From Komagataeibacter melomenusus (GTDB taxonomy: Bacteria > Pseudomonadota > Alphaproteobacteria > Acetobacterales > Acetobacteraceae), in contig NZ_JABJWC010000028.1 in the NCBI RefSeq assembly GCF_013155395.1, positions 1 through 47,233 on the forward strand: DNA of 47,233 nt. The letters are read 5' to 3'. Below are positions 15,607 through 35,628 of this stretch, piece by piece. The position numbers and the translations under genes are program-made. Under the pieces are notes generated by a model that was not told where the DNA came from, ran no database searches, and saw only the letters and a program-made list of their open reading frames with translations. Numbering within the stretch: the first letter of the stretch is position 1; every line of letters begins with the position of its first letter.

Positions 15607-15757
15607 GAGTTCCTCCCCTGTTGTTTATAGGACGGGGGAAGGGCGCAACAATCATGCAAATTTTCAATGCGGCCCTGTGCTTTTTTTCCTTTACGCACAT
15701 GCATCGTTGCAGGGTCAGTGGCCTGACCGGCCCCGCGCGCGGTGGCGGGGCCGCCTG

Positions 15758-17380: not shown

Positions 17381-17430
17381 GGTGAAAAACATCCCGTCAG
17401 GATGGGTCTGGCGGCAGGGGGCCAGAAAAT

Positions 17431-17454
17431 GACAGGCCGGAGGAAAAGCCTGTC
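17431..17454 (-). terminator. Hairpin in the riboswitch leader, possible expression platform
   Basis: On the minus strand GACAGGC and GCCTGTC form a 7-bp stem around a 10-base loop, followed by ATTTTCTGG. It lies between the cobalamin aptamer and the porin start. It could be the terminator formed when the aptamer binds its ligand, but the T-run is short, so control of translation is also possible. Confidence 0.4.
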
Positions 17455-17547
17455 GCTGTAATGGCATACGGGATGTCAGGTCGGAGGGCGCATGGTCTCA
17501 CATCCATCTCCGGTCATGCCCGCCCGGCGATATCGTTAAAGGACAAT

Positions 17548-17738
17548 GGCAGGTCTCCTGACTTGCGGGTCGCTGCACTGCATCTCCCTTCCCGGCCAAA
17601 GCCAGTGGTCGCCATTGGTACAGCGCCAGATGCAGCACTCTCCGCCTACAGTTGCGGGTACAGTTGCCGACTGCACCCCCGGGCCGGATACCCTGCCGGG
17701 GCTTACGGCATTCCCTTTTCACCCGTTTGCACGGGACC
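17548..17738 (-). promoter_or_regulatory. Cobalamin (B12) riboswitch
   Basis: Read on the minus strand from 17738 to 17548, the conserved parts of the cobalamin aptamer occur in order. GGTCCCGTGCAAACGGGTG is followed by AAAAGGGAA, then GGTGCAGTCGGCAACTGTA, then GACCACTGGC and GGCCGGGAAGGG. The closing B12 box is GACCCGCAAGTCAGGAGACC + TGCC. The match to the closing box is nearly complete. These elements bind adenosylcobalamin and usually switch off B12 uptake or synthesis genes. The only gene downstream on this strand is the OprB-type porin. Confidence 0.93.
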
Positions 17739-18049
17739 ATTGACTTGTCGGGCTGGACTATAGCGTGCGTGGATCAATGTGCAAGATCAGCGCATTATCA
17801 CGCTGCTGGCCATGTTGGCACCGGCATGGGCACGCGCGGGCCGCGCCATTGGCGCAGGCCGGGTCCTGGTTGCGTGGCTGGGGTCCTGCGCGGGGCGTGC
17901 GTGGCGGATGGGCCTTTTGTGCCCCGCTGGCAAGGCGTTGAATGGACTATATTGATAAGAAATGGTTTTGTTAAAAAGGGCAGCCTTGCAGGCAGCTTTC
18001 CGAAAAAAAAAGCTGCACCCGGAACGTGCTTATGATTGACAGGCCGGTT
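17739..18049. other. Intergenic region with a degenerate repeat (copy E)
   Basis: Upstream of the riboswitch, so it should contain that promoter; I cannot place it with confidence. At about 17966-18036 a worn copy of the double-hairpin repeat is visible (GTTAAAAAGGGCAGCC, CAGCTTTCCG, AAAAAAGCTGCACCCGGAACG), next to the 3' end of the GGDEF-EAL gene. No coding signal seen. Confidence 0.4.
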
Positions 18050-20587: not shown

Positions 20588-20774
20588 GATGGCGTCTTTC
20601 CACAAGGTCCTGGCCTGCCGCTGCATGGCATGTCCATGATGAAGGAACATAAAAGGCGCGGTTTTTCAGGCGATAAGGGGCATTCGTGTTTCTTTGACTC
20701 TATTGCGGCAGTTTTATGGCCTGCTGCCGTATTGTCTTTACTGTGCCGCCACGCGCGCATATTGCCGCAGTGGG

Positions 20775-21404: not shown

Positions 21405-22724
21405 TTACCGGCCTGCCGGGGGCGCGGTGTTGCGCAGGTCGGCAAGGGCCTGCTGCACCTTGGCCTGCTGGGCTGCAATATAGTCGTAGTAACGCTGGTA
21501 GAACGCAGGGAATGGCCCCGATGCCCGCGCAAGGGCGGGGTGGTGCGCCTGCCACCATGAAAGTGGCTGGCGCGCCTGCATGATGCGGGCATAGCGGGTG
21601 GCAAAATATTCAAGGTTGGTGCGGAGGTCGTAGTAATGCGCGTTCTTGAGGTAGCGGGCGAAATTGCGGTGATACGATCCCAGCACCGGGTCATCATAGA
21701 AGATGAGCGACAGCGAGGTGTTGTAGACCTCGTTGGGGGTGTGCACCGGCTCTGATTCCAGCAGCACGCCCGGTTCATCGGCCAGCCAGTCATATTGCAT
21801 GAAGGTCTGGTAGGTCAGCTTGTCGTTGAATATGGCCTGGATGTTGTCCACCGGCACCGCATCGGTGCGGTGGATCAGGTTGACGAGTTCATTCTTGGGC
21901 ACGGGAAAGCTGAGGGCTGCCAGCATGACAAAGCGGTTGATCGGCCATTCGCTCCAGAATCCCGCCGCCGCCAGCGCGTTATGGGTCAGGTGGTTGCAGT
22001 TGTCCTGCAACACGTTGGACTCATAGGTCTTTGGCCCGTTGCGATAGAGGGCGTTGCGCTCGTTGAGGAAATCCATGATCTTGCGCATCTGGGGCTCGGT
22101 CACGGGCAGGCGGGCACAAAAGCGTGCGCGCCCCAGCGTGGTGGCGTAATCGGTGCCGACCGACATCTCGTATTTCCAGTCCACGGCGGACATGTTGGCA
22201 GGCTTGCCGTTGAACACCTCCTTGTGGAAGATCACGCCATCATAGATGCCGCGCCGCTTGGCCTCGTCCTGCGTTGCCACGTAGCCTGCGCGTGTCAGCC
22301 CCTGCCCCGGCGCCAGCGTGCCATCAAAGTAGAAGGCGCTGCTCTCCGCCCCGGTCCAGTTGGCGTTGCTGTAATGCGAGTTCATGCTGAAGCCCACGCC
22401 ATCGGGCCGGTCGGCAGTACGCGTGGCATCGCATTCGGTCAGCACGGGGTAGCCTGCCTTGCGGTCAAGGCACACGCCGCCAAGGAACATGACCGCATGC
22501 CCGCCAGCACCCCCGCTGATATCCGCGCCAAAGCCGGGCTTTTTCGAGATCTGCGAGACCGCGCACAATTCGGCGTAATACGGGAAGGCCTGGTTGTACA
22601 CATCAGGCCGACTCACCTGGCCGGGATGGGTGAAGTTGGTCGGCGCGCAGGCGGCCAGCAGGGCCGTGCCCGCCAGCAGGGCCGCGCAGGCCATGCGGCG
22701 CAGGGGGTGCGGTACCATGGCCAT
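21405..22724 (-). CDS. Lipoprotein with a permuted papain-fold (NlpC/P60-like) pattern, last gene of the polyene cluster
   Basis: 439 residues. The lipoprotein signal ends in the lipobox LLAAC (Cys26). GGHAVMFLGG (His76) lies early. Further on come RARFCARLPVTEPQMRKIM, DFLNERNALY and NVLQDNCNHLTHNALAAAG (Cys243). A His-first, Cys-later order with an NCNH block is the pattern of circularly permuted papain-like proteins (LRAT, PPPDE, permuted NlpC/P60), which cleave or transfer acyl or amide bonds. The rest is helical and Tyr-rich. It is translationally coupled (TAATG) to the halogenase-like gene. A role in attaching, trimming or anchoring the polyene lipid at the outer membrane fits but is inference. 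Confidence 0.82.
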   Translation of the reverse strand: MAMVPHPLRRMACAALLAGTALLAACAPTNFTHPGQVSRPDVYNQAFPYYAELCAVSQISKKPGFGADISGGAGGHAVMFLGGVCLDRKAGYPVLTECDATRTADRPDGVGFSMNSHYSNANWTGAESSAFYFDGTLAPGQGLTRAGYVATQDEAKRRGIYDGVIFHKEVFNGKPANMSAVDWKYEMSVGTDYATTLGRARFCARLPVTEPQMRKIMDFLNERNALYRNGPKTYESNVLQDNCNHLTHNALAAAGFWSEWPINRFVMLAALSFPVPKNELVNLIHRTDAVPVDNIQAIFNDKLTYQTFMQYDWLADEPGVLLESEPVHTPNEVYNTSLSLIFYDDPVLGSYHRNFARYLKNAHYYDLRTNLEYFATRYARIMQARQPLSWWQAHHPALARASGPFPAFYQRYYDYIAAQQAKVQQALADLRNTAPPAGR

Positions 22725-24067
22725 TACCGCCGCCCCCGCTCAAGCTCGGGGCATGATTGTGGCCTGTCGCGCTCCAGCCACAGCCTGGCCGAGACAAGAT
22801 AATACGCTGCCTTGAACACGGCCATGGGCAGGCGCGTTTTCAGCCTGCCCCGGAAGTCGCCCGCCAGCAGCGAGATCACCCCGTCACGCATGCGGAACTC
22901 GTTGCGCGGGTTCATGAACAGGTGGCGGATGACCGGCGTGTTGATGCGGTAGATCAGCCACGCGACCCGTTTCATGGCGGCACGGGTTTCCTGCTCCGCC
23001 CTGTGTGCGGCCCGCCGCCCCGCCCTGGGGGATTTGAGCCACGCATCGGCAACCGACACGCCGCGCTCGGCACTGCTCATGGCCAGCAACACGCCCGAGG
23101 AGAACACGGGGTCGAGAAAGCCGAAGGCGTCGCCGATCATGTAATAGCCTTCCCCCCATGACTGCCCGGCATGGTAGGAGTAATTGCCCGTGGCCATGAT
23201 CTCGCGCAGCGGTGTTGCGTTGCGCATGCGCGCGCTTACGCTCGGGCTGGCCCTGACCCTGCTCCAGAACAGGTCCGCCGGGCTGCCCTTGCGGCCTTCA
23301 AACGCCACGCGGTCGCCCACAAAGCCCACGCTCATCAGCCCGTCGGGCAGCGGGATCATCCAGAACCAGCCATTCTCCACCAGATGGATGGAAATATAGC
23401 CCTCCCTGTCGCCATCGCGGAATTCGACGCCGCTGAAATGGCCGAACAGGGCAGCGGTGGAATTGTATTTGTTGCTGGTCTTGTTACCCGCCCGGCTGGC
23501 GAGGAAGGTATCGCGCCCCGAGGCATCGAGTATGAAGCGCGGCGCAAAGGCCAGTCTTGCGCCATCAGGCCCCACGGCCTCCACATGGCCGCGCGCGCCC
23601 TCCTGCCCCGGCGTCACGCTGGTCACGCGGGTGTTTTCCAGCAGGGTCGCCCCTTCCCTGCCCGCGTGGCGGAACAGCATTTCATCGAATTCGGAGCGTA
23701 CGACCTGGTAGCTGTTGGTATAGCTTTTGTCGATGCCATAGGCGAACGGGAAGGCCACGCTACGCCCGGTCACGTCGGAGACGAACTCGGCACCCGGCTT
23801 GAACACCCCGAACGCACGCACCCGGTCCATCAGGCCAAGGCGCTCGAGAATGGGCAGGTTCCACGCCAGCAGGGATTCACCGATATGAAAACGCGGATGG
23901 CTGTCCTTTTCCACCACGATCACCCTGCGCCCCTGCCCGGCCAGCAGGGCGGCGGCGGTTGACCCCGCAGGGCCACCGCCGATGACAAGGACATCGCATT
24001 CCTGCGCGGGGTGGCTGGTGGTGGGGGGTGTCATGGGGCGTTCTTTCGTGCTGGGATGCGGGGTCAT
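22724..24067 (-). CDS. FAD-dependent oxidoreductase of the tryptophan/phenol halogenase type
   Basis: 447 residues. FAD-binding GGGPAG is at 30-35, followed by VVEKDSHPRFHIGESLL. A lysine in GVFKPGAEF (Lys90) lies where phenol-type flavin halogenases keep their catalytic lysine. GWFWMIP (233-239) matches the WxWxIP signature that separates halogenases from monooxygenases, and GDAFGFLDPVFSSGV closes the FAD site. It could halogenate the aryl head group, as in brominated xanthomonadins, or work as an oxidoreductase. It overlaps the ketoreductase gene by ATGA and the next gene by TAATG. An internal ATG at 24034 with GAAAGAA upstream is an alternative start. Soluble or membrane-associated. Confidence 0.87.
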   Translation of the reverse strand: MTPHPSTKERPMTPPTTSHPAQECDVLVIGGGPAGSTAAALLAGQGRRVIVVEKDSHPRFHIGESLLAWNLPILERLGLMDRVRAFGVFKPGAEFVSDVTGRSVAFPFAYGIDKSYTNSYQVVRSEFDEMLFRHAGREGATLLENTRVTSVTPGQEGARGHVEAVGPDGARLAFAPRFILDASGRDTFLASRAGNKTSNKYNSTAALFGHFSGVEFRDGDREGYISIHLVENGWFWMIPLPDGLMSVGFVGDRVAFEGRKGSPADLFWSRVRASPSVSARMRNATPLREIMATGNYSYHAGQSWGEGYYMIGDAFGFLDPVFSSGVLLAMSSAERGVSVADAWLKSPRAGRRAAHRAEQETRAAMKRVAWLIYRINTPVIRHLFMNPRNEFRMRDGVISLLAGDFRGRLKTRLPMAVFKAAYYLVSARLWLERDRPQSCPELERGRR

Positions 24068-24783
24068 GCCATGCCACCATTGATCGAGATGGTCTGGCCG
24101 TTGATGTAGCCTGCGCGACCGGAGGTGAGGAAGGCGACAAGGTCGGCCACTTCCTCCGGCTGGCCCGCGCGCTTTGCGGGCACGAGGTCGGCAATCTGGC
24201 GCGGGGTCATCACCGCGTCGATGGCAGGCGAGGCAATGATGCCGGGCGCCACCACATTGACCGTAATGCCCCGGCTGGCCACCTCACGCGCGAGTGCGCG
24301 CGCCGCCCCGCTCAGCCCCGCCTTGGCTGCCGCGTAATTGGCCTGTCCCCGGTTGCCCATGATGGCCGCGACCGAGGAGATGCCCACGATCCGCCCCCAG
24401 CGCGTACCGATCATGGGCAGCAGGAGCGGCTGGAGGGTGGCAAAGAAACCATCAAGCGATACGGACACGACCGCGCGCCACTGCCGGGCACTCATGCCCG
24501 CCATGGGTGCATCATCATGAATGCCCGCGTTATGGACCACCACCTGCACCACGCCTTCGGCCAGCAGGGTCTCGAGTGCGGTGGCGGTGGCTTCCATGTC
24601 CGACAGGTCGCACTGCCATGCCTGTGCCGAGCCGCCGGTGGCGCGGATTGCGGCTGCAATGGCGCGCGCCCTGTCGATGGCGTTATGCGCATGGACGATG
24701 ACGTGCAGCCCGTCCTGTGCCAGGCGCTGGCAGATGGCCTGGCCGAGCGGGCTGGCGCCCCCGGTTACGAGTGCGCGTTTCAT
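24064..24783 (-). CDS. 3-ketoacyl-ACP reductase (SDR) of the aryl polyene cluster
   Basis: 239 residues, ApeQ-like. TGGASPLG at 7-14 is the cofactor site, HNAG at 84-87, and the catalytic residues are Ser137, Tyr150 and Lys154 (ANYAAAKAG). The end INGQTISINGGMA is FabG-like. It would reduce each beta-keto group on the growing ACP-bound chain before dehydration to a conjugated double bond. Four-base ATGA overlaps join it to the dehydratase gene before it and the flavoprotein gene after it. Confidence 0.9.
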   Translation of the reverse strand: MKRALVTGGASPLGQAICQRLAQDGLHVIVHAHNAIDRARAIAAAIRATGGSAQAWQCDLSDMEATATALETLLAEGVVQVVVHNAGIHDDAPMAGMSARQWRAVVSVSLDGFFATLQPLLLPMIGTRWGRIVGISSVAAIMGNRGQANYAAAKAGLSGAARALAREVASRGITVNVVAPGIIASPAIDAVMTPRQIADLVPAKRAGQPEEVADLVAFLTSGRAGYINGQTISINGGMA

Positions 24784-25223
24784 GCCTGTTGTCCCTGTGG
24801 TTGCAGCACGACAAAACCGTGCCCCGTGACCAGCGCCGCGCCCGCTTCGCTCTCTACGCTGAAATGGTAGCGCATGCCCTGTTCATCGGCCTGTTCGCAC
24901 GTGGCCCTGACCTGCAACGTGCCCCATTGCGGCTGGTCCAGCCGCCCCGGCGCAAGACTGACCTGGCGCAGGGTGGTCAGGTAGCCGATGCGCGGGCCGC
25001 CCGCCTGCCTGTGCAGCCCCCCATGCAGGGCGGCGGCCTGCATGCCGATTTCAACCCCGCACACCATATCAAGCCGCCCGTTGCGGCGCAGCGGGTTGGC
25101 GGGGTCGAGATGCGCGCGGGTGGTGCAGTAAATCGTGCGCATGTCATGGCGCACCACGCGCTCAAGCAGGCAGCTTGCCCCGGCATGGGGCATGTGGGCC
25201 TCGATGTCCGCCCGGCTCAGCAT
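24780..25223 (-). CDS. 3-hydroxyacyl-ACP dehydratase-like (hotdog), ApeP-like
   Basis: 147 residues with the hotdog dehydratase layout seen in polyene clusters. An N-terminal MPHAGASCLLERVV holds the likely catalytic His13. A helix, GVEIGMQAAALHGGLH, follows, then beta strands ending in GHGFVVLQP. It would remove water to create each trans double bond. It overlaps the synthase-like gene upstream by seven bases and the ketoreductase downstream by four. A second dehydratase domain is fused to the ligase in this cluster, so the two may form a heterodimer as in other APE systems (inference). Confidence 0.85.
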   Translation of the reverse strand: MLSRADIEAHMPHAGASCLLERVVRHDMRTIYCTTRAHLDPANPLRRNGRLDMVCGVEIGMQAAALHGGLHRQAGGPRIGYLTTLRQVSLAPGRLDQPQWGTLQVRATCEQADEQGMRYHFSVESEAGAALVTGHGFVVLQPQGQQA

Positions 25224-26026
25224 GGCGTCACCTTGATGGCCACGTGGCCGATATCGCCCGCAACGCGGATTTCATGCGGGCCGCCATTGGCCAGGGCGGC
25301 CAGGAGCGGCAGGGCGCGTGCTGCCGGGTTGTCGTGGCACAGCGTGCGCAGGGCGGTCGTGGTCTGCGCATCGGGCAGGATCAGCGGGGTGTCGGTGGCC
25401 TCTTCAGGCCCGTATTCTATATCCAGCATGGCCAGCGCGTGCGGCACGGAGCGGGGGGAGAGCACGAGCCCCACGCCAAACGTGCCCCGCGTGGGCCGTT
25501 TCTGGCCCAGTGGCTGCGGCATGGCCATGTCATAGACACACAGCAGAACGGTCCTGTCTTCCACCACGGCCTCGGCTGCGGCCTGCAGCAGGGAAAAGCC
25601 CCAGCTCCAGTCATACCCGCCAAAACAGGCCACGGGCTGGCGGGACTGGCTGCCGATGGTCCAGTACCCCGCCGCCGCGTTATGCACGCAGTTATGGAAC
25701 TGCGTGGGCGACAGGCCCGCTGCCGGGTCGGCGAGTGCCTGCAGGATGGCATTGACGACCCTGCCATCGCCATTGGAACTGCCAAACACGTTATGCACCG
25801 CAGCAGGATCGCACCCGGCTGCGGTGCAGGCATCGCTTGCCACCGCCATGGCAAGGCGCACGATGGGGCTGGTGCGGCGCCGTTCGTTGGGGGCCAGTGT
25901 GGCGGGCGGCGGCAGGGCGCAGGGCGTGGGCTGCCATGCGGCCTCCCCGCGCAGGATGGCGCGGGCGGCCGCCCATCCCGCCATGCCATCGGCCAGTACG
26001 GCCAGGCCCGAAATCCATACGCGCAT
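25217..26026 (-). CDS. Beta-ketoacyl synthase-like chain length factor, ApeC-like
   Basis: 269 residues, starting MRVWISGL at 26026 in a TGATG overlap with the ketosynthase stop. It matches the short Ketoacyl-synt_2 type: FGSSNGDGRVVNAILQAL, then QFHNCVHNAAAGYWTIGS, where a true synthase would have its Cys loop, and a final segment lacking the second His of the active site. Such proteins pair with the ketosynthase and set chain length without condensing themselves. Its place directly after the KS gene fits a KS-CLF dimer. A longer frame to 26056 would overlap the KS gene further and is not favoured. Confidence 0.83.
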   Translation of the reverse strand: MRVWISGLAVLADGMAGWAAARAILRGEAAWQPTPCALPPPATLAPNERRRTSPIVRLAMAVASDACTAAGCDPAAVHNVFGSSNGDGRVVNAILQALADPAAGLSPTQFHNCVHNAAAGYWTIGSQSRQPVACFGGYDWSWGFSLLQAAAEAVVEDRTVLLCVYDMAMPQPLGQKRPTRGTFGVGLVLSPRSVPHALAMLDIEYGPEEATDTPLILPDAQTTTALRTLCHDNPAARALPLLAALANGGPHEIRVAGDIGHVAIKVTPC

Positions 26027-27240
26027 CAGGCGGCCTTTCCAAAAATCAGGCTGCAATTTGCCCCGCCAAAGCCAAAGGCGTTGCTCATGACATGGCGCAT
26101 GGGCCGGGCCTCGTTGGTGGTCAGCACGTCTGCGCGGAAAGCGGGGTCCACTGCCTCCACGCCTAGGCAGCCGGGCATGAACCCGTGCTCAAGGGCCAGG
26201 GCGCAGATCATGGCCTCGATCACGCCGCACGCGCCCAGCGTATGTCCCGTCCAGCCCTTGGTGGAGGAACATGGCACATGCGCGCCAAACAGCGTGCTGA
26301 CCGCCTTGTCCTCCATCGCGTCATTGGCGCGGGTGCCGGTGCCGTGCAGGTTGATGTAGTCAATGGCAGCCGCCGGCAGGCGCGCACTGTCCAGCGCACG
26401 CTGCATGGCCAGCACAGCACCCGCGCCGTGGGGGTGCGGGGTGGACATATGGTGCCCGTCGCTGCTCGCCCCATAGCCGAGCACGGTGGCATGAAACCCG
26501 GCTGGCGGCCCGCTGATCGTGCGGCCATCAGGGCGTTCGAGCAGCACGATGCCCGCCGCTTCCCCGATCGAGATGCCATCGCGCCGCGCATCGCACGGGC
26601 GGCAGCGCCCGGCCGAGACCAGTTCAAGGGCGGCGAACCCGCGCAGCGTCATGCGGCACAGGCTGTCCGCGCCGCCCACCACCACCGCATCGCAGAGACC
26701 GGCACGGATCAGGTAGGCCGCATCCATGAACGCGCGCGAGGAAGATGCGCACGCCATGGACACGCACAGCGCAGGCCCGCGCAGGTCCAGTGCCGCGCGC
26801 ACGTACCGCGCGAGCGAGAACAGGTCCTGCGTATGTTCATAATCGAAGTTCGCGGGCAGCCTGCCCTGCGCATCCATGGCGCAGAAGGCGTCCTCGCTGG
26901 CCAGCACGCCCGATGTGCTGGTGCCCATGACCACGCCAATGCGCCCCGCCCCATAATGCGCGCGGGCCGCCATGATGGCATCAGCCACGCCATCGGTGCG
27001 CAGGGCCATGTCGACCAGCCGGTTGTTGCGGCAGGCATAGGCGGCAAGCCGCAGGGGCAGGGCGTGGTCTTCCACGCCCGCAACGGAGCCTGCATAGCCG
27101 TGGGTGATGCCGGCAAAATCGCACGGCTCCAGCCCGGTGCGCCGGGTGCGCAGGGCGGCAAGCGTCTGCGCCACGCCAAGGCCCATGGCGCTGATGCCGG
27201 TGCCCGCGGTCAGGCGCAGGGCGGTCAGGGCGGCGGTCAT
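26026..27240 (-). CDS. Beta-ketoacyl-ACP synthase of the aryl polyene cluster (ApeO-like)
   Basis: 404 residues, KAS II-like. The nucleophile is Cys164 in VSMACASSSRAF, and the two catalytic His are His299 in NLHGTGTRAND and His333 in STKGWTGHTLGACG. The C-terminal gate NAFGFGGANCSL is intact. It should condense malonyl units onto the aryl starter, repeatedly, on the cluster ACP. Many APE clusters have two active ketosynthases; only this one is seen here. It overlaps the exporter gene by ATGA. Confidence 0.92.
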   Translation of the reverse strand: MTAALTALRLTAGTGISAMGLGVAQTLAALRTRRTGLEPCDFAGITHGYAGSVAGVEDHALPLRLAAYACRNNRLVDMALRTDGVADAIMAARAHYGAGRIGVVMGTSTSGVLASEDAFCAMDAQGRLPANFDYEHTQDLFSLARYVRAALDLRGPALCVSMACASSSRAFMDAAYLIRAGLCDAVVVGGADSLCRMTLRGFAALELVSAGRCRPCDARRDGISIGEAAGIVLLERPDGRTISGPPAGFHATVLGYGASSDGHHMSTPHPHGAGAVLAMQRALDSARLPAAAIDYINLHGTGTRANDAMEDKAVSTLFGAHVPCSSTKGWTGHTLGACGVIEAMICALALEHGFMPGCLGVEAVDPAFRADVLTTNEARPMRHVMSNAFGFGGANCSLIFGKAA

Positions 27241-29570
27241 GAACGGGCCTGCCGGGGGGTGTCGGCTACGGGTGCCGCCATCATGAAACTGAACAGCATG
27301 GCCAGGAACGCTCCTATCGCGACGGTTGAGCCGATATCACGCAAAAGCGGGGTGCGGCAGCAGGCCAGGATGCCAAAGGTCAGCAGGGTCATTGTATTGC
27401 AGGTGAGCAGGGTGCGTAAGGTGCGGGCGCGTTCGGCCCGGTCGATCTGGGGGCGGGCGAAGAACAGGGCGTAATCCAGCCCCACCCCCATCACGAACTG
27501 AAGCGAGATGACATGGATGAGCGACAGCCTCACCCCCAGCACCGCCATCGCCGCCACGATCACGATGCCCGCACTCCCCACCGCCGCGCACACGCGCGCC
27601 AGCCGCCGCCCGTCGCGCAGGCCCAGCGCCAGCACCGCTATCGCCATGAGGGTGCCAGCCACCGTCCACCACAGGGCCTGATGCATGTGATCGGCCACGA
27701 TGGCGTTTGTCTCGTTGCGCATGTTCAGCATCATGACGCCGGGCTGCGTGGCGAAGGCTGCGGCAAGCGCTGCCGTATCATGCACGGTTTCAGGCAGGAT
27801 GATGCCGAACCACCGGCCCTGGCGCGCAAACAGCAGCGGGGCCAGGCGGGTGGCCACGAGCGGGGATGTCATGTCGCCCGGCTGTAAGGGCGCCATGGCG
27901 CGTGTGGCTGCGACATCCTGCACGAAGGGGGCAAACGCATCGGGCTGGAACGGCAGGTCGGCGCGGGCTTCATCAAGCCTGTGGGTCAGGACTGGCGTAT
28001 CGGGCAGGCTTGCGATGCGGGCGCGCTGGATGCTCATGCTGGGCAGGAAGCGGGCAGCGTATTCCGCATCACCCATCACCCCGTGTGCCTGAAGGGCGTC
28101 GAGCACGGGCATGAGGCGTTCCTCGCGTTCCAGCACGCCCTGCGCGGTGGGCGCCTGCACGATAATGGCCTGACCTGCATCGGGGGCGCCAATTTCGTGG
28201 CGCAGTTGCGCATCGAGCGCGCGCAGCGCGGGCGGCACGGGGCTGAGGGAGGCGATATCCGTCTCGCGCGCGGGCGGATGGAGCACGAGCACGCCCGCGC
28301 CAACCACCGGCAGGACCAGGCACCACAGGCGGTAGCGCCGCCAGGATTCAATGCGCAGAATACCATCTGCATGGGTTGCGACACCGGGGGAAAGGTCGGC
28401 CCTCTGGATCAGGCGCGGCAGGAGCCACAATGTCGTGGCCGCGGCACTCAGCAGCCCCACGACCGAAAACACGCCAAGCTGCGCCAGCCCCGGCAACCCG
28501 CAGAACACCATGCCCGTCAGCCCCAGGCACGCGCTGCTTGCCGCAAGCCGCAGGCTGGTGCCGATCCGGCGCAGGGGGGCATCCGCCGCCTCGCCCTGGT
28601 CGCGGTGGCCGATCAGCAGCACGGGGTAGTCGAGCGAGACACCAAGCATGGCCATGCCAAAACCGAACGAGATGCCATGCACGTAGCCAAACAGCACCCG
28701 CACCACAATCATCGCGACACTGAGCGACAGCGCAAACGGAATGCCCATGGCCGCCAGCACCCATGGCGAGCGGAAGCGCCAGATCAGCACCGCCGTAACC
28801 AGAATCATCGAGGCGGTGGACAGGAACTCCACATCCCCCTGCATGGCGTGCGAGGCCCTGAGCGCAAACACCGCAGGCCCGGACATGAGCAGGTGCATGC
28901 CCGGTCGCGCCGCCGCCGTGTAAGCTGCATTGATCGCGGCCTGCACCTGCTTTTGCGCATACAGGTCCATGCCGTTGGCGCGGGTGCGCAGCAAAAGCAG
29001 CGCGCGGTCACGCTCGGGCGCAAACCACACGCCATCAATGCTGCGCCCGTGGCTGTGCGGCGCCCACGCGCGCAGCAGCGCCATGAAGGCGCCGGTCGGG
29101 TCAGCCAGGCCATAATGCTGGGCCAGTGGCTCGGCGGAGGAGTCCATCATGTCCAGCACGGCCTGCATGTCATCATGCAGCGCATCGACGGAAAAATCCC
29201 GCGCGGAATCCTGTGGGGCCAGCAGGTAGCGGTGGCTGAACAGAAAGGCTTCATCCGCGCCATCGGGCGGGCGGCTGCCATTGGTCACGGTGATAAACAG
29301 CCCGCTGCGGGCAAGGCTGTCCGCCATGGCCTGGCTGGCCTGTGCCAGCATGTCGGGCGCAGCGCCCTCGATCCCGGCCAGGATGACCGTGGCGGCACTG
29401 CCGGACTGGATCTCGCGCAGGATGAAGCGCGTGTTGTCCGTGCGGCCCGCAGGCAGGAAGCCCGCCATGTCGGTGCGCAGCGGTATGGCCATGAATACGC
29501 ACGCCGCCACCACCAGCGAGACCAGCAGCCCGATGGCCAGCGGCTTTATGGAGCGCGGGCGTGCCGTCAT
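27237..29570 (-). CDS. MMPL/RND-family exporter of the aryl polyene cluster
   Basis: 777 residues with two similar halves. Each has one N-terminal membrane helix (about 10-30 and near 415), a periplasmic domain of about 200 residues and a bundle of five helices, giving about 12 in all. Recognisable stretches are FGYVHGISFGFGMAMLGVSLDYPVLLIGH in the first bundle (shortened here as GVSLDYPVLLIGH) and HVISLQFVMGVGLDYALFF in the second, with the Asp-Tyr pair common in MMPL transporters. It probably lifts the lipid-linked polyene from the inner membrane toward the outer membrane, together with the LolA-like protein encoded just before it. It overlaps both neighbours by four bases. Confidence 0.9.
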   Translation of the reverse strand: MTARPRSIKPLAIGLLVSLVVAACVFMAIPLRTDMAGFLPAGRTDNTRFILREIQSGSAATVILAGIEGAAPDMLAQASQAMADSLARSGLFITVTNGSRPPDGADEAFLFSHRYLLAPQDSARDFSVDALHDDMQAVLDMMDSSAEPLAQHYGLADPTGAFMALLRAWAPHSHGRSIDGVWFAPERDRALLLLRTRANGMDLYAQKQVQAAINAAYTAAARPGMHLLMSGPAVFALRASHAMQGDVEFLSTASMILVTAVLIWRFRSPWVLAAMGIPFALSLSVAMIVVRVLFGYVHGISFGFGMAMLGVSLDYPVLLIGHRDQGEAADAPLRRIGTSLRLAASSACLGLTGMVFCGLPGLAQLGVFSVVGLLSAAATTLWLLPRLIQRADLSPGVATHADGILRIESWRRYRLWCLVLPVVGAGVLVLHPPARETDIASLSPVPPALRALDAQLRHEIGAPDAGQAIIVQAPTAQGVLEREERLMPVLDALQAHGVMGDAEYAARFLPSMSIQRARIASLPDTPVLTHRLDEARADLPFQPDAFAPFVQDVAATRAMAPLQPGDMTSPLVATRLAPLLFARQGRWFGIILPETVHDTAALAAAFATQPGVMMLNMRNETNAIVADHMHQALWWTVAGTLMAIAVLALGLRDGRRLARVCAAVGSAGIVIVAAMAVLGVRLSLIHVISLQFVMGVGLDYALFFARPQIDRAERARTLRTLLTCNTMTLLTFGILACCRTPLLRDIGSTVAIGAFLAMLFSFMMAAPVADTPRQARS

Positions 29571-30169
29571 GCGGGCGGGTCGATGCGCATGACCTGCGTA
29601 TCCCCATTGGCCTGCACCACGCGGATGACCGTCATGGCGTTGTTCTGGCCATCGATCGTGATCGTGCGCACGTAGCGCGCCATGGCGGGCAGGGGGGTGA
29701 GTTGCAGCGTCCAGTGCGCCACGTCGCCCTGTGCCGCCAGCGCATAGTCATGGCGCAGGGCGGTGATGTCGCCATCAAGCGGCGCGCGGATGGCCTCGAC
29801 CAGGGCGGCAAGCTGCGCATGGTGCGACAGGTCCACCACGCGCGCCGGCCCCTGCCCGCGCGCCAGGCTCAGCGTCGTGCCCTGCACGATCAGGGTCTCG
29901 GGCCGGGGGGCGCGCGTGATCTTCTGCACATGGCCGGGCCGGGCATAGATCAGTTCACCTGATGAATCGAGGTCATGCGTCAACGCCGCGATATGCTTGC
30001 TTTCATGGAAGGCGTTGTGCCGCGCGGGCACCATGCCGATGCGGGCGATGACGGTGGCGGCCAGGTCGGGCTGCGGCGGGGTTGTGTCCTGTGCGCGTGC
30101 GCTTCCTGCCCCCCACAGCACGGCCAGCGCCATGAAGGCGGGCGCAAGGGCACGTTTATGGTTCCTCAT
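29567..30169 (-). CDS. LolA-like outer membrane lipoprotein carrier of the cluster
   Basis: 200 residues from MRNHKRALAPAFM at 30169, whose ATG overlaps the previous stop (ATGA). The signal peptide ends near GSARAQ. The mature part follows the LolA fold: ARHNAFHESKHIAAL, then SSGELIYARPGHVQKITRAP, which is the typical LolA motif, and later QLTPLPAMARYVRTITIDGQ. LolA proteins carry hydrophobic lipid groups across the periplasm. Here it would hand the polyene lipid from the MMPL exporter to the outer membrane. Confidence 0.87.
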   Translation of the reverse strand: MRNHKRALAPAFMALAVLWGAGSARAQDTTPPQPDLAATVIARIGMVPARHNAFHESKHIAALTHDLDSSGELIYARPGHVQKITRAPRPETLIVQGTTLSLARGQGPARVVDLSHHAQLAALVEAIRAPLDGDITALRHDYALAAQGDVAHWTLQLTPLPAMARYVRTITIDGQNNAMTVIRVVQANGDTQVMRIDPPA

Positions 30170-31095
30170 GGCTCTCCCCCGTGTTTTCCCACCTGCGGGG
30201 CAACCCATACATCGTGGAAATTGAACCAGTTGTAAGGATGGGCGCGGCACAGCCCTTCCATCCAGCGGGCGTACTGCCCCATCCATGTGGCCAGTCCCTC
30301 CGCCCGCCTGCCGCGCGGGATGGTGATCTGGTCCGCCAGCAGTTCGAAGCGCACCGTATAGTGCCTGTAGCCCGTGCGCACCCCGCTGAACAGGATGACC
30401 GGCACCCCCAGCATGCCCGCCACCAGTAGTGGCCCGGCGGGAAAGGCCGCCACGCCGCCAAGGAACGGGGTGGGCACGGATTTTTCATGCCCCGGCGCCC
30501 TGTCGCCCAGCATGCCCACCAGTTCGTTGCGTGCCAGGCTTTCCTGCACGCGGATCATGGCATCAGGCTCGCCGATATCAATGATATTGCGCGCGAATTC
30601 GGGGGCAAGCTGTTCCAGCAGGCGCGTGGGCGCGCCCGCATTGCGCCGGAACATGAGCACCCTGACCGGAAAGGGCGACATGCGGCCCACGCTGCGCAAT
30701 GCCTCGAACGAGCCGATATGCGCACCGAGCAGGATGCACCCGCGCCCGCCCGCCATGGCCGCATGCACGCAGTCCAGCCCGTTGATGTCGATTGTATAGC
30801 CCCTGTAACGCCCTGAGAGGAAAAAGACCCGGTCCAGTATGGCCGCGGCAAAGGTGTGGAAATGCCGCGCCACGTCCATCGTGCGCGCGGGCCGGTCGAG
30901 CACGCGGGCCAGGTACTGGCGCGAGGCCCGGCGCGCCTGCCGCGCCGTGAGCAGGAAATACAGCGTGATGAACGGCAAGATGGCCTCGCCAAACGGGCGG
31001 CCCACCCGCAGCGTCAGCCAGATCATGAAGCGCGACAGCGCGGCTGTGCCGCGCTCGGGCCGGACCCAGCCGGGTTCGGGCCTACCCATGGGCAT
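30166..31095 (-). CDS. LpxL/HtrB-like lipid acyltransferase of the cluster
   Basis: About 309 residues from ATG 31095; ATG 31089 is equally close. An N-terminal membrane helix (about 37-52) is followed by a lysophospholipid acyltransferase domain with the HxxxxE motif at His126-Glu131 (AHIGSFEAL). Further family segments are GMLGDRAPGHEKSV and FPAGPLLVAGMLGVPVI. Enzymes of this type add an acyl chain to lipid A or similar lipids at the inner membrane. It may attach the polyene acyl chain or a fatty acid to the lipid anchor. It overlaps the ligase gene by 14 bases. Confidence 0.85.
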   Translation of the reverse strand: MPMGRPEPGWVRPERGTAALSRFMIWLTLRVGRPFGEAILPFITLYFLLTARQARRASRQYLARVLDRPARTMDVARHFHTFAAAILDRVFFLSGRYRGYTIDINGLDCVHAAMAGGRGCILLGAHIGSFEALRSVGRMSPFPVRVLMFRRNAGAPTRLLEQLAPEFARNIIDIGEPDAMIRVQESLARNELVGMLGDRAPGHEKSVPTPFLGGVAAFPAGPLLVAGMLGVPVILFSGVRTGYRHYTVRFELLADQITIPRGRRAEGLATWMGQYARWMEGLCRAHPYNWFNFHDVWVAPQVGKHGGEP

Positions 31096-32728
31096 TGTTG
31101 CGCAAGCGCCCTTTTGCCACGACCTGCGTGCCCACCGTGCAGGTAAACGCCAGGGGCTGTATCGTGTGCGTAACCCGCACGGTATCGCCCGGCCGCACGG
31201 GGCGGAGGAACTTGATCTGTTCAAGCCGGGCGGGCTCGACCCCCATGAGACCGAAGACTTCGCTCAGCACCACCGCGCCGGGCACGATGGGGTTGCCGGG
31301 AAAATGCCCCGCCAGGGCAGGGTGGTCCACGGCTATGCTGAAGCAGCCTGCCTCCTGCGCCGTCGTGGCCGGGGCGGTGGCCTCGGTGGCGGGGCGGGGT
31401 CCATGCACAAGGGCCAGCAGGGCCGCACGGGTCAGCTTGCCCAGTTCGTTGCGGGGCAGGACACTCACGCGCACGACCCGGCGCGGCAGGAAGGCGGGGG
31501 GCACGCGCGTGCGCAGTTCGGCCAGGATGTCGGGTGCCGTGCGGGTGGGCGCCACCACCACAACCTCCATCCGCCCCACGGGCTGGCCCGGCGCGGCATC
31601 GGGCGCGGGGGCGAGAAAGGTGCCATCCTCAACGCCGGGCAGGCCGAGCAGGATGGCGTTCAGCCCGGCAAGGGAGGTGCGCTGCCCCGCGATCTTGATG
31701 ATGTCGGTCATGCGGCCTTCGAGCCGGAACGTATCGGGCGTGAGGGGCCTTAGCGCATCGGCCACGACGTGGCTCGTGGTATCGGGCGCATGGATGCTGG
31801 CCGTGCCATCGGGGCGGGGGTGCAGGCGGATGCCGGAATGCAGGCGCCACGCCTGCGTTGCGGTTGTGCGGCGCGTGGCGATGGAGCCGGTTTCGGTGCT
31901 GCCATAAATCTCGAAAACGGGGGCCTGCCAGCAGCGTTCCGCCCTCTCGGCGGTGGCGGCATCAAGCGGTGCGGTGGCGGATATGACCCGCGCAATGGGT
32001 GGCAGGGGCGTGGGGTCAGCCAGGAACGTGCGGAGGTGCAGCGGCGTGGTGAGCAGGATGCACGGCTGCGGCCCCTGCTCGAGGCGGGTGCGGATATCGG
32101 CAGGGAACAGGGCCGGCCCCGTGGTGCTGATGCAGCCGGTGACAAGGGGCTGGATGACCGTCGTTTCGAAACCGTACATATGATAGGGCGGCACCGTGCC
32201 CACGATGGTGGCAACCCGGCCCGGCACGGGCGTGAACAGCCCTGTGCTGGCCTGTGCCCGGCGGTTCAGTCCGCCCCATGTCTTGGCATGGGCGACCGGC
32301 GTGCCGGTGCTGCCCGATGTCAGGATATGCGCCACGACCTGCATGGCTGCAATATCGGGGTTGGCAGGCCTGCCCGCGCCACCAGCGTGCAGGGTGGAAA
32401 GGCGGATGACAGGCATGCCGGCCGGGCGCGGGCAGGGCGGCAGGTCGGTATCGGTCACGATGGCCGCATCGGGGTAGCAGGCGAGCAGGTGCGCAAGCGG
32501 GCCTGCGGCGTGACTGCCCGGCAGCACGCTGTACTGCCCGCGCAGCACGGCGGCACAGAAGGCGACGGTAAAGTACAGCCTGTCACGGCACAGGTTTATG
32601 ATCGGTCGCGGCGGCAGCGTGGCGGCAAGGGCGTGGGCTGCATGGAGCACGTCGTTGCCGGTTACCAGGCGTTCCGGTGTCCTGAACAGGAGGGCTGCCG
32701 GATGGCCGAGCAGGGGAAACGCATGCAT
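31082..32728 (-). CDS. Aryl acyl-ACP/CoA ligase fused to a 3-hydroxyacyl dehydratase
   Basis: 548 residues. Residues 1-450 are an adenylating ligase (ANL family): phosphate loop ILTSGSTGTPVAHAK (135-149), PYHMYGFE, a YGSTETGSIATR loop and a C-terminal RNELGKLTR lysine motif. It would activate an aromatic acid starter and load it on the ACP (ApeH-like). From about 461 a hotdog dehydratase domain follows, with VDHPALAGHFPGNPIVPGA, in which His475 should be catalytic (ApeI-like). The two roles are usually two genes, so this is a fusion. It lies nine bases after the ACP gene. Cytoplasmic. Confidence 0.9.
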   Translation of the reverse strand: MHAFPLLGHPAALLFRTPERLVTGNDVLHAAHALAATLPPRPIINLCRDRLYFTVAFCAAVLRGQYSVLPGSHAAGPLAHLLACYPDAAIVTDTDLPPCPRPAGMPVIRLSTLHAGGAGRPANPDIAAMQVVAHILTSGSTGTPVAHAKTWGGLNRRAQASTGLFTPVPGRVATIVGTVPPYHMYGFETTVIQPLVTGCISTTGPALFPADIRTRLEQGPQPCILLTTPLHLRTFLADPTPLPPIARVISATAPLDAATAERAERCWQAPVFEIYGSTETGSIATRRTTATQAWRLHSGIRLHPRPDGTASIHAPDTTSHVVADALRPLTPDTFRLEGRMTDIIKIAGQRTSLAGLNAILLGLPGVEDGTFLAPAPDAAPGQPVGRMEVVVVAPTRTAPDILAELRTRVPPAFLPRRVVRVSVLPRNELGKLTRAALLALVHGPRPATEATAPATTAQEAGCFSIAVDHPALAGHFPGNPIVPGAVVLSEVFGLMGVEPARLEQIKFLRPVRPGDTVRVTHTIQPLAFTCTVGTQVVAKGRLRNNAHG

Positions 32729-32737
32729 GCTGATGGC

Positions 32738-33010
32738 TTAGGGCGTGGCGTGCGCTGCTATGTAATGGGTCAGGCTGCGCACGGAGCGGAAGATATCCAC
32801 CTTATCGGCAGTGTCCGAACGGAGTTCCACGCCGTACTGCCGCTTTATGGCCAGCGAGAGTTCCAGCGCATCAATGGAATCCAGGCCAAGGCCATCGCCA
32901 AACAGGGGGGCGTCCATCTCGATGGTGGAGACGGGCATGTCCAGTTGCAGGGTCTCTACAATAAGGGCCGCTACTTCGGTTTCTGATGGAGATGGAGGGT
33001 TTGCCGCCAC
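32738..33010 (-). CDS. Acyl carrier protein of the aryl polyene cluster
   Basis: 90 residues from a GTG at 33010. The phosphopantetheine site is GLDSIDALEL with Ser45. The size and helix pattern are those of an ACP. It is the first gene of an eleven-gene minus-strand operon running to 21405, so its upstream region (33011-33175, AT-rich, shared with a divergent membrane protein gene) should hold the main promoter. Many APE clusters have two ACPs; only this one is seen. No clear SD sequence precedes the GTG. Confidence 0.92.
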   Translation of the reverse strand: MAANPPSPSETEVAALIVETLQLDMPVSTIEMDAPLFGDGLGLDSIDALELSLAIKRQYGVELRSDTADKVDIFRSVRSLTHYIAAHATP

Positions 33011-33175
33011 TAATTTATGCCTATTATTTACATTAATATCAGAAGATTTCTGACCGGGAGCATACCCTGCCCCATGGCTTGTAACAATGCTGAATCATTC
33101 TGTAACAGCAGCCGGGGTTTGCATCGCGCTGCAGCGCGGTGCCTGTATGCTGGGTCATTACGGTCAGGCGGTTGT

Positions 33176-33787
33176 ATGCGTTTAGCTGGCATTATCATGC
33201 TGTTTGTGGCGAGTATTGGGGCGCATGTCCTCTCGGGCATGGGGCTTGAGGCGCCTGCCGCGCGCTGGCTGGTAACGGGGCAGGCCATGGCGGGTTGCGT
33301 GCTGCTGGCGGCATCCGTCATGCGCGGGCGGGTGGCATGGGGTGTGTGCCTTGTACTCCTTGCGGCACTTGGATACGCGCTGCCCCCCGGTTTTGTGCTG
33401 CTGGCGGATTCCGTGGTGCTGTATGGCCTGCTCCAGGGCGCGCTGCTGCTGCTGTTTGCCCGCACCCTGCGGCCGGGGCGTGAGCCGCTTGTCACCATGC
33501 TGGCCCGCCAGGTGCATGGCGCGCTGCGGCCCGATGTGCTGCTCTATACCCGGCAGCTGACATGGGCATGGAGCCTTTTCTTTGCGGCGCAGATGCTTCT
33601 GCCCGCCCTTGTGGCGCTGGTGGGGCCTGCGGGGTGGTGGCGCGCGGTGCTGCATGGGGCGAGCATGCCGCTGGTGCTGGTCATGTTCGCGGTTGAGGCC
33701 GGGGTGCGGCGCTGGCGCATCCGCAATTTCGATCATGCCACGATCATGGAGTCCGTCAGGGCCTTCAACAACCGGGCGCGCAGGTAA
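33176..33787 (+). CDS. Polyene-cluster integral membrane protein (COG4648-like)
   Basis: 203 residues starting MRLAGIIM; a longer frame to 33017 has no convincing start. There are five or six membrane segments (for example IIMLFVASIGAHVLSGMG, LVLLAALGYALPPGFVLLADS, FAAQMLLPALVALVGPAG). The last 60 residues are the most conserved part of this family in aryl polyene and xanthomonadin clusters (LTWAWSLFFAAQMLL, then FNNR near the end). Its biochemical job is unknown. It is the only cluster gene on the plus strand, divergent from the ACP and convergent with the glycosyltransferase. Confidence 0.78.
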   Translation: MRLAGIIMLFVASIGAHVLSGMGLEAPAARWLVTGQAMAGCVLLAASVMRGRVAWGVCLVLLAALGYALPPGFVLLADSVVLYGLLQGALLLLFARTLRPGREPLVTMLARQVHGALRPDVLLYTRQLTWAWSLFFAAQMLLPALVALVGPAGWWRAVLHGASMPLVLVMFAVEAGVRRWRIRNFDHATIMESVRAFNNRARR

Positions 33788-33799
33788 GGGGTGGTTCCC

Positions 33800-34564
33800 T
33801 CACGCCCGTGCGCCGCGCCTGCGCAGGGGGCGCAGCAGCAGGCGGCCCAGGAAGATGACCATGAGCCGCACATGCATGCGGATCAGCAGCAGGTTGTCGC
33901 GCAGGTAATGGAAGTGGGAGATGCCCCCTTCATCGCGGCTGGGGTAGCGCACGGGTGCATCAAGATTGACGCAGGCCAGCCCGCGCCAGCACAGGCGCAC
34001 GGCGGCCTCGGGGTCGAAATCATAGCGGCGCATGCCCGATACCCCGTCCATGACCGCCAGCAGGTCGGCTGCCGGATAGACGCGCAAGCCGAACAGCGAA
34101 TCCCCGATGTCGCTGCCCGGCGTTTCCAGCCGCGCCCACCAGTTGGATACCCGGCGCCCCTGCACCCGCAGGGCGGGCGCGTCAGCAGCAAAGACGGGTC
34201 GGCCCAGGATCAGCGCCGCCGGTGCATTGCGTGAAGCCTTGATGAACCGGCCAATCTGCTCGGCCGGGTGCTGTCCGTCGGCATCCATGGTCAGGATATG
34301 GGTGTAACCGCGCGTGCGTGCCCAGCGCAGCCCGTGATGGATGGCCGCCCCCTTGCCCCGGTTGCGGGGCAGGCGCGTGACCGACAGGCCGGGATGGGTG
34401 GCGGCTAGGGCGGGCAGGCTGTCGGCGCTGCCATCGGTGCTGCCATCGACGACAACCAGCACATCGGGCCAGAAGGCCAGCGCCCCGGCCACCGTGCGCG
34501 CCAGGACCGGGCCGGTATTGTAGGAGGGAATGACGACAAGATGCCGCGGGGCGGGCGGGTTCAT
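33800..34564 (-). CDS. Family 2 glycosyltransferase of the cluster
   Basis: 254 residues, GT-A fold. VVIPSYNTG opens the domain, VVDGSTDGS is at 38-46, and the DxD metal site is Asp94-Asp96 in LTMDADGQHP. Dolichyl-phosphate-mannose-synthase-like. Its short C-terminal hydrophobic segment (LMVIFLGRLLLRPL) may bind the membrane. It would add a sugar to the lipid or aryl part of the polyene. In other APE clusters this domain is fused to an acyltransferase; here it is separate. It overlaps the PlsC-like gene by ATGA. Confidence 0.9.
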   Translation of the reverse strand: MNPPAPRHLVVIPSYNTGPVLARTVAGALAFWPDVLVVVDGSTDGSADSLPALAATHPGLSVTRLPRNRGKGAAIHHGLRWARTRGYTHILTMDADGQHPAEQIGRFIKASRNAPAALILGRPVFAADAPALRVQGRRVSNWWARLETPGSDIGDSLFGLRVYPAADLLAVMDGVSGMRRYDFDPEAAVRLCWRGLACVNLDAPVRYPSRDEGGISHFHYLRDNLLLIRMHVRLMVIFLGRLLLRPLRRRGARA

Positions 34565-35343
34565 GCCATGCCTCCATGGGGGGCCTGCCGGGCAAGGGCC
34601 TCGGTCAGCCCGACCTGCACCTGCCCGGCCAGTTCGCGTGATGTCATGGCGCCGGTGGCCTGCGGCGGCAGGATCGCGCCGCGCGTGACGGTATAGATAA
34701 TGGGCAGCGCGGGGCGACGCAGCAGGGAAGCCCCCTTGCGCAGGTAGGGCGAATTGCTGGTAATGATCATGGTCTGCACCGTGCAGCCCGCCTGCATGGC
34801 AATGGCGGCGAAGGCGGGATGAAAGGTGTCATTCGCCCCCGCCCGGCCCGAGCGCGTGCCTTCGGGAAACAGCAGGATGGGCTGGCCTGCCCGCGCCTGC
34901 GCCACCGTGCTGCGGATCAGGCGCAGCGGCGTGTCGTTGCCGGGATATTGCGCAAGCCGCAGTGCCGCCCCGCAGAACGGGTGATCGAGCAGGGACTGCT
35001 TGGTCACGCACACAAGATCGGGCAGGTAGGCGGTGAACAGCATGGCATCCAGCAGCGAGGGATGGTTGGCCACCACCACGGTGTTGCGCAGAGGGGCCAG
35101 GGCTTTCAGGTCGCGCGGGTTGCACCGGATTCCGCCCAGCCCGCGCAGCACGTTGAGCGACAGCCGCGACATGATCCACACCCACCGCCGCCCGACCATG
35201 CCCCGCCACCGGCGCGGCACAACAGGGGCCAGCAGCAGCGCGACAGTATTGAATACGGCAAAGGCCCAGACAGAATAGACAAGGCCGATGCAGAAAATAA
35301 GTCTATGCCAGCCTCTCCGCAGCATCTTGCGTATCATATCCAT
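34561..35343 (-). CDS. PlsC-like 1-acylglycerol-phosphate acyltransferase of the cluster (ApeD-like)
   Basis: About 260 residues from MDMIRKML at 35343. A membrane helix (about 13-40) precedes the acyltransferase domain, with HxxxxD at His94-Asp99 (NHPSLLDAM) and FPEGTRSG (159-166). Such enzymes move acyl chains from ACP or CoA to a glycerophosphate lipid. In this setting it may join the polyene chain to a lipid. An in-frame stretch up to 35430 is open but reads as non-coding. The glycosyltransferase gene follows with a four-base overlap. Confidence 0.87.
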   Translation of the reverse strand: MDMIRKMLRRGWHRLIFCIGLVYSVWAFAVFNTVALLLAPVVPRRWRGMVGRRWVWIMSRLSLNVLRGLGGIRCNPRDLKALAPLRNTVVVANHPSLLDAMLFTAYLPDLVCVTKQSLLDHPFCGAALRLAQYPGNDTPLRLIRSTVAQARAGQPILLFPEGTRSGRAGANDTFHPAFAAIAMQAGCTVQTMIITSNSPYLRKGASLLRRPALPIIYTVTRGAILPPQATGAMTSRELAGQVQVGLTEALARQAPHGGMA

Positions 35344-35542: not shown

Positions 35543-35628
35543 TGGTGGAGGGAGTTGGATTCGAACCAACGTAGGCGTACACCAGCGGATTTACAGTCCG
35601 CCCCCTTTAGCCACTCGGGCATCCCTCC
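35543..35628 (-). tRNA. tRNA-Tyr (GTA anticodon)
   Basis: On the minus strand the acceptor stem GGAGGGA (35628-35622) pairs with TCCCTCC, the discriminator is A and CCA is encoded (35545-35543). The anticodon loop reads ACTGTAAAT inside a CGG/CCG stem, so the anticodon is GTA. A long variable arm (GCTGGTGTACGCC region) and the T-arm GTTCGAATCC are present, as expected for bacterial tRNA-Tyr. Length 86. Confidence 0.96.

Follow-up and report, generated by a model that had tools for sequence, protein, structure and literature searches.

At positions 21405 to 35343 of the window (the whole stretch analysed, 47,233 nucleotides of Komagataeibacter melomenusus DNA, contig C67 of a 3.64-Mb genome) lie 14 genes that very probably constitute a cluster for the biosynthesis and export of an aryl polyene (APE), of the kind commonly seen in Acetobacteraceae, by which a pigment lipid would be made and placed in the outer membrane, as the original prediction had it. 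Homologues were found for loading, elongation, reduction, dehydration, lipid attachment and export, and none for chain release among the 14 genes. Once in place, the pigment would quench reactive oxygen.

Comparison with known clusters

The APE cluster of E. coli CFT073 (apeA-R, 18 genes; locus L010, whose 18 proteins formed the search set) was used as the characterised reference. By blastp, 12 of the 14 window proteins pair with the expected part of that cluster, which argues that the match is not due to chance; the pairs cover apeC, D, E, G, H+I, J, L, M, O, P and Q. The comparison called for in the original prediction thus returned APE similarity, the lack of which was to count against it. 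Together with a match of the ketosynthase (KS) to the PDB entry 6qsp, which we take to be the Xenorhabdus ApeO structure, these pairings support the aryl polyene or xanthomonadin-like reading, and a halogenase-like gene fits the xanthomonadin side of it. Eleven of the 14 proteins were checked for motifs that are presumably characteristic of the respective families, and each of them has its motifs; the COG4648-like, LolA-like and MMPL proteins lay outside that check.

The two clusters differ in several respects. ApeH and ApeI are separate in E. coli and fused here, ApeJ is one protein there and two genes here, the COG4648-like gene is on the opposite strand, and the window adds the halogenase-like gene and a lipoprotein of 439 amino acids. 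The roles of the E. coli ape genes are taken as given in the available passages of PMC8253772, which also mention a structure, from a preprint, for a species other than E. coli.

By description, the window cluster also resembles the xanthomonadin clusters of Xanthomonas and Lysobacter, with a half-length protein like a chain length factor (CLF) beside the KS, two dehydratases, and LolA-like and glycosyltransferase genes (passages of PMC3691225 and PMC3949708). According to the parts available of PMC3691225, the xanthomonadin clusters of Xanthomonas carry a halogenase gene that is absent in Lysobacter, and the Xanthomonas pigments bear bromine; the presence of a halogenase-like gene at 22724-24067 makes this comparison, again by description, an apt one.

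The cluster type is already described for Acetobacteraceae and is common there: the passages available of PMC8776678 count 28 species with APE clusters among 96 acetous ones and 19 among 43 acidophilic ones, the products being undescribed. As here, genes for adenylation, a dehydrogenase, a probable halogenase and transport are linked to a KS homologue in that account. Neither the lipoprotein nor its joint occurrence with the cluster is singled out in these passages. PMC12131263 (in part) gives APE genes as one of the three most frequent categories in acetic acid bacteria from kefir and kombucha. Among 150 sampled Acetobacteraceae genomes, we found strong KS matches in 58, the window's own genome included. 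A strong match is one above 220 bits, a threshold chosen after the scores had been seen; among the matches listed, the lowest counted scores 223 (a piece at a contig edge) and the next genome 171. All co-occurrence tests below take genomes as independent, which relatives are not.

Compared with E. coli, the Acetobacteraceae cluster is short of several parts and adds a halogenase-like enzyme and, in 24 of the 58 KS carriers, a distinct lipoprotein; it therefore offers a genetically simple setting for tests of chain release, halogenation and placement in the outer membrane.

Organization of the cluster

The 14 reading frames are all intact and none is broken; they extend from the ATG start of the PlsC-like frame at 35343 to the end of the lipoprotein gene at 21405. 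From the acyl carrier protein (ACP) gene to the lipoprotein gene, 11 minus-strand genes are closely joined: the ACP and ligase genes are separated by the only gap, of 9 bases, the ligase and LpxL-like genes overlap by 14 bases, and the remaining overlaps are of 1, 4 or 7 bases. The PlsC-like and GT2 genes form a pair of their own with a 4-base overlap, apart from this run, and the COG4648-like gene (33176-33787) lies on the plus strand between that pair and the ACP gene. With one gene opposite in direction and the pair separate, a single 14-gene operon is rejected; the genes must form three or more transcription units, distributed over both strands.

The original prediction had thus placed the 14-gene cluster correctly at 21405 to 35343, every gene it named being an intact frame, and its account of eleven genes joined by overlaps of 1 to 14 bases or a 9-base gap is exact when checked against starts and stops. 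Its list of 12 functions holds in full but omits two genes, those of the halogenase-like enzyme and the lipoprotein. It had also assigned the DNA to an acetic acid bacterium, and this agrees with the terminal lipoprotein, whose closest named relatives, at 95% identity, are in K. xylinus K2G30 and K. nataicola LMG 1536.

Genes of the biosynthetic core

Among the features by which membership in the APE class was judged, an ApeO-type KS with an adjoining ApeC-type CLF is present, as are an aryl-acid ligase, an ACP, a ketoreductase and two dehydratases, both of the latter matched weakly (ApeP, E 0.002; ApeI, E 0.001). All core genes are on the minus strand. The ACP (32738-33010, 90 amino acids), first in the 11-gene run, is the counterpart of ApeE (PF00550, E 1.2e-9; NCBIfam NF006617, over its cut-off; ApeE, E 1.3e-22; GLDSI site) and matches ApeF less well. 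It would be loaded by the ligase part of the next protein (31082-32728, 548 amino acids), which is predicted to activate a hydroxybenzoate-type acid. In this protein an aryl-acid adenylating ligase (PF00501, E 3.3e-14; ApeH, E 1.5e-21; TSGSTG motif) is fused to a FabA/Z-like hot-dog dehydratase (ApeI, E 0.001; HFPGNPIVPG motif; PF07977 FabA, E 7e-4, under its cut-off).

The chain would then be lengthened by malonyl units through the action of the KS and the half-length CLF. The KS (26026-27240, 404 amino acids, ApeO counterpart) scores 497 bits with NF006618, over cut-off, is 40% identical to ApeO (E 3e-78), carries a CASSS site and has 7f28_B as its best and 6qsp_A as its second PDB match. 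The CLF (25217-26026, 269 amino acids, ApeC counterpart) matches PF13723 (E 3.9e-20) and ApeC (E 8e-5), and its sole PDB match at E 0.1 is 7f28_A, a chain of 204 amino acids; that both proteins match chains of the one entry 7f28 speaks for the APE reading. Conversion of each unit into a conjugated double bond would fall to a FabG-like ketoreductase (24064-24783, 239 amino acids; NF004200, 328 bits, over cut-off; ApeQ, 45% identity, E 1e-62) and to the two dehydratases. The second of these (24780-25223, 147 amino acids, ApeP counterpart) has no Pfam match and is recognised through ApeP (blastp E 0.002, phmmer E 3e-4); its sole PDB match, 6qsr_B, is non-significant (E 0.14).

Lipid attachment and export genes

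The export and lipid-attachment set is likewise present (MMPL, LolA-like, COG4648-like, and PlsC-, GT2- and LpxL-like proteins). Three enzymes, all on the minus strand, would attach the polyene to a lipid or glycolipid. The PlsC-like acyltransferase (34561-35343, 260 amino acids, ApeD counterpart) matches PF01553 with E 4.1e-15, when scanned as the longer frame to 35430, and ApeD with E 3.5e-20 in blastp, and carries HPSLLD and FPEGTRS motifs. The GT2 glycosyltransferase (33800-34564, 254 amino acids; PF00535, E 5.4e-23) corresponds to the N-terminal half of E. coli ApeJ (residues 9-238, E 2e-46), and the LpxL-like acyltransferase (30166-31095, 309 amino acids; PF03279, E 2.4e-8; HIGSFE motif) to its C-terminal half (residues 263-554, E 4e-36).

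Transport of the lipid to the outer membrane would be the task of three further proteins. These are an MMPL/RND exporter (27237-29570, minus strand, 777 amino acids, ApeM counterpart; PF03176, E 2.5e-13; ApeM, E 2e-17), a LolA-like periplasmic carrier (29567-30169, minus strand, 200 amino acids, ApeL counterpart; PF19574, E 1.2e-15; ApeL, blastp E 0.002 and phmmer E 2.3e-8; the NCBIfam flexirubin LolA2 model, E 7e-9, under cut-off), and a COG4648-like membrane protein of 203 amino acids (33176-33787, plus strand, divergent from the ACP operon), which is the ApeG counterpart by blastp (E 3.7e-4) and by phmmer (E 3e-6 against the 18 proteins) and has no Pfam or NCBIfam family at E 0.001. The final step, in which the lipid is placed or edited outside the cytoplasm, would belong to the terminal lipoprotein.

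The halogenase-like enzyme

The FAD enzyme encoded at 22724-24067 (minus strand, 447 amino acids) probably chlorinates or brominates the aryl head. It matches the Pfam Trp_halogenase family PF04820 with E 2.9e-25 (89.5 bits, for a cut-off of 21) and the PDB halogenase 3e1t_A with E 2e-47. In an alignment from which matches below 150 bits, with in-frame stops or with 300 or fewer aligned residues were left out, Lys90 and the WxWxIP motif (WFWMIP, residue 234) are kept in all 20 proteins, the window's included, and GxGxxG in 18, the other two being altered or cut off there. Lys90 aligns with a lysine of 3e1t that is presumably catalytic in this halogenase class. Overall sequence, lysine and WxWxIP are thus shared with halogenases of the CndH/CmlS/PltA class, although no NCBIfam halogenase cut-off is reached.

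A halogenase-like gene was found in 54 of the 150 Acetobacteraceae, and 52 of these 54 are among the 58 strong-KS genomes (Fisher p 7e-31); one of the other two, G017, has a KS piece in its matching named contig (L065). In one metagenome-assembled genome (MAG), L045, two halogenase-like genes (15170-16474 and 16911-18224) lie beside one APE cluster.

The terminal lipoprotein

The gene at 21405-22724 (minus strand) encodes a lipoprotein of 439 amino acids with an LAAC lipobox, a member of a family without curated name; it is the part of the cluster that is worth testing. No Pfam or NCBIfam family matches it at E 0.001, and the passages available of PMC8776678, PMC12131263, PMC8253772, PMC3949708, PMC3691225, PMC12994826 and PMC5069965 contain no mention of it. 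A pattern-based scan of named genomes returned 52 loci, of which 48 are labelled with genera that we take to belong to Acetobacteraceae, with Acetobacteraceae itself or with Rhodospirillales; the remaining four, all MAGs, carry the labels Gammaproteobacteria, Proteobacteria, Alphaproteobacteria and Myxococcales. Among 299 genomes sampled across the phylum the gene occurs in the window's own genome only, and among the 150 Acetobacteraceae in 25.

Twenty-four of the 25 lipoprotein genomes carry a strong KS (p 6e-11), and the 25th is G017, with the KS piece in contig L065 mentioned above. The two genes lie within about 10 kb in 14 of the 25. For the remaining 11 no such proximity was found: G100 and G121 have both genes on one contig but far apart, and nine genomes have them on separate contigs, which may hide linkage in some of the nine; all 11 still have the KS (hypergeometric p 2e-6, genomes treated as independent). 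At the named loci, a KS match falls within the flanks of 28 of the 52, many flanks ending at contig ends. Another conserved partner was sought in 21 named loci without a nearby KS, and no other gene family occurs in more than six of them; the one that reaches six is found only in Belnapia and a Craurococcus MAG. These 21 loci were chosen by hand (L066 has a halogenase-like gene, and L069, L073, L081, L072 and L076 have weak matches, of 26-33%, to ligase or halogenase), and their gene calling, based on a GC3 filter, is crude, with some wrong frames and the lipoprotein itself missed in 6 of the 21.

Across 51 aligned sequences (alignment A2: the window and 50 of the 52 loci, L051 and L054 being left out for a stop and a frame break; alignment A1 had left out L022, for an internal stop, and lipoprotein matches without a locus), His76, Asn242, Cys243 and His248 never vary, and neither do Cys54, 85, 98 and 203. 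The former four suggest an active site, in which Cys243 may be the nucleophile. The order of a His followed by Asn-Cys is shared with the Lnb/DUF4105 acyltransferases, permuted NlpC/P60 enzymes that act on lipids according to the available part of PMC12994826. The lipoprotein differs from them in being lipid-anchored with four further invariant cysteines, and homology to Lnb acyltransferases is a weak, unproven likeness. The Pfam family matched by most members is PF13387 (Lnb_N; 7 of 51, best E 4.7e-5) and the corresponding NCBIfam family is TIGR04099 (8 of 51, best E 0.048); the window protein matches neither, with PF13387 searched up to E 10 with HMMER filters on. In hhalign against nine PF13387 proteins, the probability is 1% (E 0.055), and the aligned stretch surrounds the Asn-Cys motif. 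Since the PF13387 matches are weak, the window protein is unmatched and the profile comparison gives 1%, an acyltransferase function is to be taken as no more than a lead. A clear Lnb_N protein (L086, G000:C69:98358-98777, E 4.5e-34), unlike the cluster lipoprotein, is encoded elsewhere in the window's genome.

Presence and absence beside tRNA-Tyr

At its right edge the cluster borders a tRNA-Tyr(GTA) gene (35543-35628, minus strand), and comparison with a genome of the same genus without the cluster puts the presence/absence boundary just past the 3' end of this gene, at about 35538. In that genome (G060), the gene of an EAL protein and its neighbour are followed, after about 470 bases, by tRNA-Tyr and RlmB, whereas the window has 14.4 kb between the corresponding points (about 21160 and 35538). 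Another genome of the genus (G135) has all 14 genes in the same order with 86-96% protein identity. Across these three genomes the unit is either complete or missing altogether beside the tRNA-Tyr 3' end; as there is a single empty site, gain and loss are not distinguishable. The EAL gene retained beside the empty site corresponds in the window to 18050-20650 (minus strand), which encodes a PAS-GAF-GGDEF-EAL protein, DosP-like but under the cut-off of that model.

Insertion with an att-like repeat at tRNA-Tyr was considered and rejected: 130 bases surrounding the tRNA and 800 bases surrounding the left boundary share exact repeats of at most 10 bases, and no integrase is recognised among the 14 genes. 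In one of 16 related loci, the MAG L045, tRNA-Tyr (285-370) and an RlmB-like gene (1101-1919, 51% identical) stand just before the APE genes (2607 onward). A search of 72,556 records for a plasmid copy gave one match, at the ketosynthase, covering 7% of the query.

Points against and alternative explanations

Several observations weigh against the APE reading or its parts. The likeness to E. coli is weak for the second dehydratase, the CLF, the LolA-like and the COG4648-like proteins; with the dehydratase part of the ligase, five E. coli matches are weak (E 3.7e-4 for COG4648, 0.002 for LolA, 8e-5 for the CLF, 0.002 for the dehydratase and 0.001 for the ligase's dehydratase part), each still with the right partner. 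None of the 14 genes is a separate counterpart of E. coli apeA, B, K, N or R, and just one ACP occurs among them, with no second, which leaves ACP release and initiation without an assigned gene. To our knowledge, not every APE-type cluster carries apeK, apeN, apeR, apeB or a second ACP, and these were hence not counted as defining. As to the starter acid, the window's genome has no aromatic ammonia-lyase (control matched in 5 of 14) and no chorismate lyase UbiC (control matched in E. coli); the XanB2-type chorismatase family PF21168 also gave no match, but the control genomes were silent as well. The lack of UbiC is not special to the cluster, UbiC being found in 3 of the 150 Acetobacteraceae and not found in 147. 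The hydroxybenzoate source, including 4-hydroxybenzoate for ubiquinone, would thus appear as a wider, family-wide gap in this search. Finally, all NCBIfam halogenase models stay under cut-off (CmlS, 169.9 against 900 bits), the 'flavoprotein/dehydrogenase' 3nix is near the halogenases in score (149 bits), and among the 58 KS genomes six have no halogenase-like gene and 34 no lipoprotein.

That the unit is a degenerate or silent remnant is very improbable: a genome of the same genus does without it and no regulator is recognised among the 14 genes, but all 14 frames are intact and G135 keeps the same 14 genes in order at the identities given above. It is also rather unlikely, though less so, that the FAD enzyme is a flavin monooxygenase or dehydrogenase which hydroxylates or oxidises the aryl head or the polyene. 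Non-halogenases of the superfamily do match nearly as well, QhpG scoring 149.7 bits for 169.9 with CmlS, both under cut-off, and 3nix scoring as stated. Nevertheless, of the six top PDB matches five carry the names halogenase, ChlB4 or CmlS, the lysine aligned with 3e1t and WxWxIP are kept throughout the 20 aligned proteins, and Xanthomonas xanthomonadin clusters, with their brominated pigments, contain a halogenase (PMC3691225, in part).

For the lipoprotein, it is a tentative possibility that it is a non-enzymatic outer-membrane acceptor replacing ApeN (DUF3261, LolB-like). DUF3261 was not found in the window's genome and occurs in only 5 of the 150 Acetobacteraceae, those with a weaker KS match (44-49% identical). 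In five of eight named loci (L040, L042, L045, L047, L079) the lipoprotein gene, by the crude gene calling described above, follows the exporter and precedes the KS, as apeN does in E. coli, and its lipobox has Ala at +2, a position that bears on lipoprotein sorting. In the window, however, the gene lies at the cluster end, not between exporter and KS; the invariant His76, Asn242, Cys243 and His248 suggest an active site; and 32 of the 34 KS genomes without lipoprotein are without DUF3261 too. As three of the five DUF3261 genomes (G014, G015, G106) also carry the lipoprotein, it is no plain ApeN substitute, and a strict replacement is weakened. More speculative, and improbable as it stands, is the idea that with the lipoprotein begins an unnamed family, found mostly in Acetobacteraceae, of Lnb/LRAT-like cysteine acyltransferases which are anchored in the outer membrane and would move or trim the polyene acyl chain after export; if true, this would be a maturation step outside the cytoplasm, one not described in the available passages of the aryl polyene literature.

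Neighbouring genes

At L047, an alpha/beta hydrolase-like gene (9450-10013) lies between exporter and lipoprotein; it is a candidate for a releasing thioesterase, of which the window has none. Next to RlmB, near the cluster, the window encodes a FUSC-family pump (36863-39007, plus strand) that matches the p-hydroxybenzoate exporter AaeB, though below cut-off, and a protein 47% identical to it is also encoded near the APE cluster of Brytella acorum (L055). The pump is possibly connected to the aryl starter acid, or its position may be mere chance. Further to the left, a cobalamin riboswitch is present at 17531-17756 (minus strand, 102 bits).

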